Assembly (NCBI RefSeq): GCF_019880635.1
Contig: NZ_JAINVX010000001.1
Span: forward strand, 434,001 to 498,000
DNA length: 64,000 nt
Direction of reading: 5' to 3'
From: Hanstruepera marina
GTDB lineage: Bacteria; Bacteroidota; Bacteroidia; Flavobacteriales; Flavobacteriaceae
The translations under genes were made by a program, and so were the position numbers. Below the pieces are notes generated by a model, which saw only the letters and a list, made by a program, of their open reading frames with translations, was not told where the DNA came from and ran no database searches. How positions within the stretch are numbered: position 1 is the stretch's first letter; every line of letters begins with the position of its first letter. Positions 60,968-62,805 of this stretch are shown piece by piece.

Positions 60968-61939
60968 ATGAATACCTTAAAAAAACATAGCTCTCAAATA
61001 TTGGTGCATATCCTGTTTTGGATCTTGTTCGTCATGGTATCTTTATTTGTTTTTTCACCTTATTACTGGCGCGAAAACCCCTTTTTGCAGTACATATCCA
61101 TATTGGTGTTCATTGTTTATGTCAACAATTTGATATTACTGCCCTATTTTGTCAAGAAGAAAATGTACGCTTGGTATGTTTTCGTTATTGCCTTAATTTC
61201 ATTTTTGGCCACGCAATTGTACTGTTATGAATTTGCTCAATGCGGTTGCTCCATTATGAAATGCTTAAGCGATTATTTATGGCAAACCTTGGTACCACTT
61301 ATTTTCTTCTCTTTTGTTTGGGTGTTATACCGATTTATAGATAAGCAAGAAGAAGTAGAGCAAATAAAGAAGGAACATTTGGAAATGGAATTGAAGTTTT
61401 TAAAATCACAGATTAATCCGCATGTACTGTTCAATAACCTGAATACCATTTATTCCTATGCTTTAGAAAAACCAAATGAAACACCAGAATTGATTTTAAG
61501 GCTTTCCGATAATTTAAAGCATGTATTGTACGAGAGTAATGCGAAAAAAATTCCATTGCACAAGGAGATTCAGTTTATTGATAATTACATGACCTTTCAA
61601 GAATTGCGAACCGAAGGTGTGAATACGATTGTTTATACCAAGAGCATTGAAAGTGAAAACAATCAAATAGCACCTTTATTACTAATAACCATAATTGAAA
61701 ATGCATTTAAGCATAGTTCCTTGAATAGTGAAATTATGGTTTCCATCATTGAAAAAAATGGTGTTTTGGAGTGTGTTTGTGAAAATGATTTTACAGAAAA
61801 AGATCGTGACTTGGCTGAATTTAAAATAGGCCTTCAAAACTTGGAAAAGCGTTTGGAGTTGTTATATAAAGATCATTATGAATTGAACGTTATAAAAAAT
61901 AATAAGTTTAAAGTTGTTTTGAAATTATCACTACTGTAA
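60968..61939 (+). CDS. LytS/YehU-type sensor histidine kinase
   Basis: 323 residues. Four predicted membrane helices (about 10-32, 40-60, 66-86, 104-124) are joined by short loops, with a small Cys-rich loop (Q-C-G-C-S-I-M-K-C) before the fourth. The His_kinase domain has the H-box Q-I-N-P-H-V-L-F-N-N-L-N-T-I, where most relatives have Phe after the His, and the N-box L-L-I-T-I-I-E-N-A-F-K-H-S. The C-terminal ATPase is short, as usual for this family. It is the partner of the LytTR regulator downstream, separated from it by 173 bases of repeat-containing DNA. Confidence 0.9.
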   Translation: MNTLKKHSSQILVHILFWILFVMVSLFVFSPYYWRENPFLQYISILVFIVYVNNLILLPYFVKKKMYAWYVFVIALISFLATQLYCYEFAQCGCSIMKCLSDYLWQTLVPLIFFSFVWVLYRFIDKQEEVEQIKKEHLEMELKFLKSQINPHVLFNNLNTIYSYALEKPNETPELILRLSDNLKHVLYESNAKKIPLHKEIQFIDNYMTFQELRTEGVNTIVYTKSIESENNQIAPLLLITIIENAFKHSSLNSEIMVSIIEKNGVLECVCENDFTEKDRDLAEFKIGLQNLEKRLELLYKDHYELNVIKNNKFKVVLKLSLL

Positions 61940-61953
61940 AAATTAACTCCAGT

Positions 61954-61980
61954 TGTCATTCCTGCGAAGGCAGGAATCCA
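61954..61980. repeat. REP-like palindromic element, left copy
   Basis: The core ATTCCTGC-GAAG-GCAGGAAT forms an 8-bp hairpin with a 4-base loop. Twenty-five bases of this unit recur exactly, in inverse orientation, at 62071-62095, between the kinase and regulator genes. The two copies could pair into one long cruciform. Confidence 0.88.
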
Positions 61981-62070
61981 TGGAATTATTTGTCTTAAAA
62001 CCATAATGTTTTAAGAATTTAAATAGCGTAAAGAAAGAAAATTATTAATCAAAATACCGGAGCTTAAATA

Positions 62071-62095
62071 GATTCCTGCCTTCGCAGGAATGACA
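62071..62095. repeat. REP-like palindromic element, right (inverted) copy
   Basis: This is an exact inverted copy of the unit at 61954-61978, 92 bases away, ending 17 bases before the regulator ATG. Its core hairpin is GCAGGAAT-type as in the other copies. An mRNA from the kinase gene could fold the two units together ahead of the regulator start. Confidence 0.88.
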
Positions 62096-62112
62096 GAAAA
62101 ACTGGATTTAGT

Positions 62113-62805
62113 ATGACCTGTATCATCATTGAAGACGAAATACCTGCGCAAAACATTCTTAAGAATTTCTTGAAAAAGTTGCCTGATATGGAATTAATAG
62201 CAACTTTTAAAGCCGCTATTGAAGCCAATAATTTTCTAAAAAGCGAAACGGTAGATTTGGTGTTTTTAGATGTAAACTTGCCAGATATTTCAGGGATTGA
62301 TTTTATTAAAACCGTTAAAAATCCGCCAGCTATAATCATGACAACGGCTTACCCAGATTATGCTGTGAGTAGTTTTGAATTGGATACTATTGTAGATTAT
62401 TTGGTAAAACCCTTCTCGTTTGACCGTTTTATAAAAGCGATTAATAAAGCTAAAGATAGACTAGAGGTTTCGAATAAAACGACTGCTGATGAATCTGAAG
62501 TATTGTTTTTGAATGTCGACAAAACACTTCATAAAATTGTATTGGATGAATTGGTCTATATAGAATCCGACAGAAACTATATTACTGTTGTTACCACCAA
62601 ACAAAAACTGTCCTATATCGATTCCCTAAAAAACTGGAACGAAAAATTACCGAGTAATCAGTTTATACAAACCCACAAGAGCTACATCATAAACCGTAAG
62701 TTTGTCGATAAAATTGCGGGTAATGAAATTTATGTAAATAGTAACCGCTTACCAATTGGCAGAACCTATAAGCAGGAATTGTTAAGGAAGTTGCATATTG
62801 TATAA
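62113..62805 (+). CDS. LytTR-family response regulator
   Basis: 230 residues. The receiver domain (about 1-118) begins C-I-I-I-E-D-E-I-P-A, has the phospho-acceptor Asp in L-V-F-L-D-V-N-L-P, Thr in M-T-T-A-Y and Lys in L-V-K-P-F-S. The LytTR DNA-binding domain (about 132-230) has Y-I-E-S-D-R-N-Y-I and F-I-Q-T-H-K-S-Y-I-I-N. It should be phosphorylated by the LytS-type kinase upstream. Targets are not visible; LytTR sites are not obvious near other genes here. Confidence 0.94.
   Translation: MTCIIIEDEIPAQNILKNFLKKLPDMELIATFKAAIEANNFLKSETVDLVFLDVNLPDISGIDFIKTVKNPPAIIMTTAYPDYAVSSFELDTIVDYLVKPFSFDRFIKAINKAKDRLEVSNKTTADESEVLFLNVDKTLHKIVLDELVYIESDRNYITVVTTKQKLSYIDSLKNWNEKLPSNQFIQTHKSYIINRKFVDKIAGNEIYVNSNRLPIGRTYKQELLRKLHIV

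Follow-up and report, generated by a model that had tools for sequence, protein, structure and literature searches.

Free-standing GIY-YIG homing endonucleases enter at conserved gene ends and are transferred laterally to the same site. A class of small dispersed palindromes, the CGTC-REPs, was described by Di Nocera et al. (2013; PMC3733652), according to whose available text they consist of a CGTC or TGTC tag, an 8-bp stem beginning with AT, a 4-base loop and a tail that is mostly CCA, were reported in Bacteroidetes, and have Azospirillum lipoferum, Sinorhizobium meliloti, and Novosphingobium aromaticivorans among the carriers named. As far as the same text goes, RAYTs (REP-associated tyrosine transposases) are the proposed mobilisers of the GTAG REPs, the CGTC repeats are unassociated with transposase genes and seemingly without a dedicated transposase, no RAYT gene flanked by CGTC repeats appeared in the survey, hypothetical proteins of less than 120 aa were excluded from the pool of intragenic REPs, and the mover of the CGTC class was left open. 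A search of the open-licence PMC literature (bioRxiv preprints aside) returned, among the titles and abstract openings listed, nothing that links GIY-YIG genes with REPs, which may be in print elsewhere; the term GIY-YIG is absent from the available text of RepRanger 2025 (PMC12306157), a HuH survey (PMC6006769), and a TnpAREP paper (PMC8266576), and the 2007 Caulobacter repair paper (PMC1839093), which treats three small COG2827 genes of open role, contains neither "palindrom" nor "repeat" in the text available.

The locus described here lies in a 64,000-nucleotide stretch of the Hanstruepera marina genome (hereafter the window; genome G000, 3.28 Mb, 13 contigs). A sensor histidine kinase gene (60968–61939, + strand, 323 aa, PF06580) ends with its stop at 61939, and the ATG of a LytTR-family response regulator gene (62113–62805, + strand, 230 aa, PF00072 and PF04397) follows at 62113, leaving a gap of 173 bp (61940–62112). 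A first-pass annotation made from the letters of the window had placed in this gap, between kinase and regulator, two identical inverted REP-like elements of 25 bases that end 17 bases before the regulator ATG, and all of this was borne out, with exact inverted 25-mers at 61954–61978 (+) and 62071–62095 (−), and a spacing of 17 bp from the right arm to the ATG. Each is a tagged palindrome: the left one (61954–61981, +) has the tag TGTC, an 8-bp stem ATTCCTGC, the loop GAAG and the tail CCA, its stem-loop reading ATTCCTGC-GAAG-GCAGGAAT and the stem beginning with AT, whereas in the right one (62068–62095, −), which is inverted and bears the same tag, the tail CTA replaces CCA. The inverted arms reach a length of 28 nt (96% complementary), are separated by 86 nt, and delimit a shell of 142 bp whose interior (61982–62067, +) holds no open nuclease frame and has stops in all three + frames.

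Tag, AT-starting stem, loop, left-arm tail, and inverted dimer arrangement are those of the CGTC-REPs as far as the 2013 text describes them; the difference is that no transposase is reported there for the class, whereas full-length relatives of the pair described here enclose a GIY-YIG gene, as shown below. No further site for the 24-base core was detected within the window at up to 3 mismatches (0.00 expected from 100 shuffles), and the 25-mer occurred at seven places in the whole genome (up to 3 mismatches), two of them being the window arms. Across the five genomes of the genus, a 23-mer search (up to 2 mismatches) found 60 places, 5 to 20 per genome, including seven inverted pairs less than 600 bp apart, all with their tags outward (counted by eye). 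The 20-base core of the palindrome was not found in the open-licence PMC literature.

Examination of the sister species, a check that the first-pass annotation had proposed, was decisive for the identity of the pair, which is present in two of four of them and missing from the other two. The regulator orthologue was found in all five genus genomes. In G001 and G003, the kinase-regulator junction is empty and the two genes share a stop/start overlap, ATGA, whereas H. marina, H. flava NBU2984 (G004), and H. ponticola MM-14 (G002) are occupied. In the last two, the same inverted palindromes enclose, at the place of the window interior, an intact GIY-YIG ORF of 99 aa (PF01541), giving a full form of about 370 bp in which a TGTC-palindrome, the nuclease gene and the inverted TGTC-palindrome follow one another. 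As the junction is empty in two sisters and the same pair surrounds an intact nuclease gene in two others, the window pair reads as a nuclease-less copy. Among 16 orthologous kinase-regulator pairs from other genera of the family, 10 overlap by 4 bp and 2 by 1 bp, and the remainder have gaps of 2, 3, and 14 bp (three pairs) and of 111 bp (one), with two of the 16 spacings estimated since the match begins at residue 3 or 4; a close junction is therefore the norm, and the window pair a leftover of an insertion. Taken together, it is very probable that the pair represents both termini of a small mobile element that has lost its nuclease gene and persists as a 142-bp MITE-like shell. The REP-like nature recognised in the first-pass annotation stands; what could not be seen from the window alone is the identity of the pair as a GIY-YIG element shell.

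The window interior showed a weak similarity to the nuclease gene (p = 0.006 with G002, 0.036 with G004); two other elements and the reverse strand gave no signal. Given this weakness, an obvious nuclease relic in the interior was rejected. The shell resembles bacterial MITEs in being short, with inverted ends, without coding capacity, and with an autonomous partner in relatives (G004 and G002), but its partner is a GIY-YIG element instead of an insertion sequence, and the target duplication seen in relatives is long and irregular. As a separate observation, a 111-bp kinase-regulator gap in another genus (L075, G097) contains a different repeat, of the GTCAGTTCGAGTG...GTATCGAGAAC type, and a similar repeat lies downstream of a neighbouring gene in G004 (L046).

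Comparison of the two intact copies revealed that the element has moved laterally. Element identity between G002 and G004 was 96.8% (358/370), against 83.4% for the adjoining regulator, and dS was 0.106 for the nuclease gene and 1.55 for the regulator, so the element is far more alike than the gene next to it, having moved laterally into the same site. The sequences that flank the G002 and G004 insertions differ, which makes more than one entry into this junction probable. The junctions of G004 and the window, for their part, agree at all but 2 of the 33 bp that precede the left arm and at all but 2 of the 17 bp that follow the right arm.

Towards the kinase side, the window matches the empty G001 and G003 at 87–100% per 60-column bin until about 78 bp away, and then falls, in the last two bins (78 bp), to 0.62/0.60 and 0.33/0.33, the corresponding values with G004 being 0.93 and 0.89. 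This diverged tract (61876–61953, +, left limit approximate) covers the kinase C-terminus and the spacer and resembles the element-bearing G004, not the empty G001 or G003. G002, whose regulator is the most distant, has the G001/G003 type of tract; the type found in the window and G004 is accordingly derived, and may have come by co-conversion from a diverged donor. On the other side, a relic of the original kinase 3′ end together with the regulator ATG (62096–62115, +, GAAAAACTGGATTTAGTATG) corresponds to AAAACTGAATTTAGTATGACC in the empty G001 and AAAATTGGATTTAGCATGACC in the empty G003; the 17 bases 5′ of the ATG are thus what remains of the old kinase end. Here in the window, the duplication of flanking sequence is incomplete and has diverged. 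A diverged flank common to two occupied alleles is shared with the free-standing GIY-YIG homing endonucleases, as are the GIY-YIG domain, the conserved gene ends, and lateral entry into the same site; the inverted palindromic ends, the dispersed copies, and the duplicated target set the present elements apart.

Relatives of the element show a clear target-site duplication at a DEAD-box helicase gene (PF00270), whose 3′ end is an insertion site shared by several of them, with long flanking duplications. G002 has a single copy of this gene end and no element; in G001 an element is bordered on either side by a 23-bp copy of this end, and shrunken remnants are left in G003 and G000. Of the 109 loci compared, six lie at the helicase gene, the element pointing one way in four of them and the opposite way in two; past the element, the gene end is repeated in L140 (25/26), L238 (47/50), L235 (50/55), and L157 (13/14), and no such copy was seen in L222 and L237. 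Further insertion sites among the 109 loci also recur across genera. Among 49 tagged elements (past arm-score and tag filters, duplicates included), 5 had a flanking direct repeat that exceeded the 99% point obtained from mismatched pairs, where 0.49 were expected; the lengths vary. In A. lipoferum, an element lies between sufB and sufC and is absent from the four regions read in A. ramasamyi, A. oryzae, Azospirillum sp. B510, and A. thermophilum; presence and absence were seen at this site, and a clear duplication was not found. Locus L142 (G002), considered as a third site, was too rearranged for a duplication to be defined and was set aside.

The small GIY-YIG genes of the genus and of some relatives were then analysed for flanking palindromes. 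The 40 loci fetched contain 43 ORFs, 27 of them from Hanstruepera, out of at most 28 small GIY-YIG genes in the five genus genomes, and 13 loci from outside the genus are a chosen subset. Under a loose comparison of the 200 bp upstream with the reverse complement of the 200 bp downstream, 21/43 GIY-YIG ORFs (13/27 in Hanstruepera) exceeded the best of 50 control ORFs; some of these matches beyond the control, such as L164 and L169, are repeats without a clear tag. Further loci came from a genome-contig scan, from which the best 80 of 566 confirmed candidates were taken, and from a plasmid search (32 records, 14 fetched), the query alignment of the genome scan being built from palindrome-bearing loci, which biases the 80 genome loci. 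Inverted flanks at p ≤ 0.01 (200 dinucleotide shuffles) were found in 65 of 93 usable loci, L241 being left out of the 94 for its short flank and three duplicates, of L146, L155, and L157, being kept.

In a stricter test, each side had to contain, within 200 bp, a [CT]GTC tag leading into an exact hairpin of at least 6 bp. In a first set of 108 loci (three duplicates removed, and including 17 of the 40 fetched loci, picked after their flanks had been seen), 47 passed, 7 had the hairpin upstream only, 10 downstream only, and 44 on neither side, against none of 96 controls (0/52 window ORFs and 0/44 neighbour ORFs of the same loci). With all 43 ORFs restored, the count became 49/134, composed of 39/91 from the collections, 7/27 from Hanstruepera (formerly 7/16, so that the rerun lowers the rate), and 3/16 from other relatives. 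The 27-ORF Hanstruepera set is the fairer and least biased one, given the origin of the genome-scan queries, and its 7/27 still departs from the controls (Fisher p 1e-5). Hairpins at both ends thus flank many related genes. The test was failed by 85/134 GIY-YIG ORFs, and by 20/27 in Hanstruepera, where several failing ORFs have visible but imperfect palindromes; either the arms decay, or some small GIY-YIG genes lie outside such elements. All three carriers named in the available 2013 text were found here with GIY-YIG genes, those of A. lipoferum and N. aromaticivorans having tagged arms on both sides and that of S. meliloti (L203) failing the two-sided hairpin test.

The palindromes follow the proteins. 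Palindrome similarity correlated with protein similarity over the 47 passing loci (r = 0.60, permutation p = 0.0005) and within the seven Hanstruepera loci alone (r = 0.95), and different nuclease subfamilies carry different palindromes. The passing loci are labelled as Bacteroidota, Ignavibacteria, Chloroflexi, several Patescibacteria, and Alpha- and Betaproteobacteria, although single placements may be wrong, as many are metagenome bins. The nucleases are mostly about 92–116 aa long, and among the residues invariant in 11 aligned proteins are Y7, Y18, G20, R28, H32, E53, E65, and N84, which look like a GIY-YIG active site and which we take to match the active-site residues of I-TevI. Against solved structures, the best match was the UPF0213 protein 1zg2 (E 2.6e-9), the I-TevI domain 1mk0 giving E 0.008. 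Beside GIY-YIG genes of other subfamilies, eight loci (L135, L138, L143, L145, L147, L150, L156, and L158) have other dispersed palindromes, of the types TTGCGAGG..GAAGCAATC, CGACTGCGCTCG, TTCGACAAGCTC, and ATTCAGAACG..GAAGAATC, so that several repeat families may own a nuclease each.

Our proposal is that the mobility of CGTC-REPs comes from small GIY-YIG nucleases, through a process akin to homing. We give this about an even chance of being correct; the cleavage and transposition that it invokes are hypothetical, and the lateral transfer into one site and the diverged flank bear on them indirectly. The nuclease would cut at a sequence conserved in gene ends, which in the kinase-regulator operon is the stop/start overlap, and repair would copy the element in while duplicating flanking sequence, with the result that both host genes stay intact. 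The palindromes would be the ends recognised by the nuclease or by the repair machinery, and loss of the nuclease gene over time would leave palindrome pairs and solo palindromes, the solo and paired CGTC/TGTC REPs being leftovers of such elements. The general form of the proposal could turn out either way with equal ease: GIY-YIG proteins would be the missing mobilising enzymes of the CGTC-REP superfamily, forming elements of about 350 bp unrelated to RAYT/IS200, with homing-like entry at gene ends and a long target duplication, and the REP pairs and solos of several phyla would be their debris.

The GIY-YIG gene is possibly a passenger or a caretaker. As a caretaker it would be the element's own structure-specific nuclease, cutting cruciforms of the flanking hairpins while host recombination takes care of insertion; the superfamily includes structure-specific nucleases such as SLX1, the termini of the element are hairpins, and the insertions leave long, variable copies of gene ends. 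However, the element reached one and the same site laterally in two species, and six loci share a single gene end, with the element in either orientation; both observations suggest site-directed entry, and we consider this alternative rather unlikely, if worth keeping in mind.

The pair might also be a kept regulatory device, the stem attenuating the regulator or protecting the kinase mRNA, which would be compatible with an origin from an element. The long stem foreseen in the first-pass annotation is indeed predicted: the RNA of 61930–62130 folds at −65.7 kcal/mol (z = −8.9, none of 200 shuffles being equally stable), with a stem that exceeds 25 bp and includes ACUGGA adjoining the start codon, so the fold extends to the start region. 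In addition, both arms remain exact copies of each other, and the 17 bp before the ATG leave little space for a promoter. A sigma-70-type scan of 61800–62250, to which Bacteroidetes-type promoters are foreign, gave no match on the + strand and one on the minus strand, and no terminator-like site (a GC-rich stem followed by a T run) was detected in the same interval. Against such a device, two of four sister species lack the pair and have overlapping genes, 15 of 16 family orthologues either overlap or are separated by no more than 14 bp, and the same ends enclose a nuclease gene in two sisters, and are therefore explained by the element; we regard a kept device as improbable. An effect as a by-product of the insertion is another matter: as the ATGA overlap has been replaced by 173 bp and a very stable stem near the regulator start, the lower regulator level or the protection of the kinase mRNA suggested in the first-pass annotation is a possible side effect.

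The reading in which a RAYT moved an ordinary REP dimer and the GIY-YIG genes travelled along as passengers has on its side the general appearance of the pair and the role proposed for RAYTs with GTAG REPs in the available 2013 text, but it is very improbable and a RAYT was rejected as the mobiliser, because PF01797 (Y1 transposase) gave no match in the H. marina genome, in a search that was positive in 5 of 14 control genomes, the tag is TGTC and not GTAG, the available survey text has no CGTC-flanked RAYT gene, and the palindrome varies with the type of GIY-YIG protein. The preferred GIY-YIG element does resemble the REPtron/RAYT system in having a small nuclease gene between inverted REPs, with REP dimers as non-autonomous offspring; it differs in that the nuclease is GIY-YIG and not the unrelated HUH/Y1, in its other tag, and in the long flanking duplications.

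A cognate nuclease, if confirmed, would explain the origin of the CGTC repeats and of the inverted dimers near gene ends, would turn questions on REP function into testable questions on a selfish element, and would give a role to many small genes annotated merely as "GIY-YIG nuclease family protein". The window locus, for its part, offers a natural before/after comparison for an ATGA-overlapping two-component operon, which, at the insertion, would have lost its overlap and gained a strong RNA stem 5′ of the regulator start.

Some further observations were made along the way. All Rfam matches in the gap were sub-threshold (window 61939–62129: WsnRNA46, 45.8 bits, cut-off 65.3; FtrB, 30.9 and 23.3 bits, cut-off 66), and a known RNA family was rejected for it; these Wolbachia and Francisella "sRNA" families may themselves be CGTC-REP pairs. 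Phage records gave no match for the kinase-regulator gap. A gene neighbourhood around the element is shared by L217 and L240, from a Flavobacteriaceae bin and a Candidatus Nitrotoga bin, through either lateral transfer or a mis-binned contig. In L170 (G023:C20), three adjacent GIY-YIG copies, of which two are truncated or broken, are individually flanked by palindromes and form an element cluster. Finally, a Planktothrix plasmid copy (L204) is located between an MmeI-type restriction enzyme gene and drmA (DISARM).
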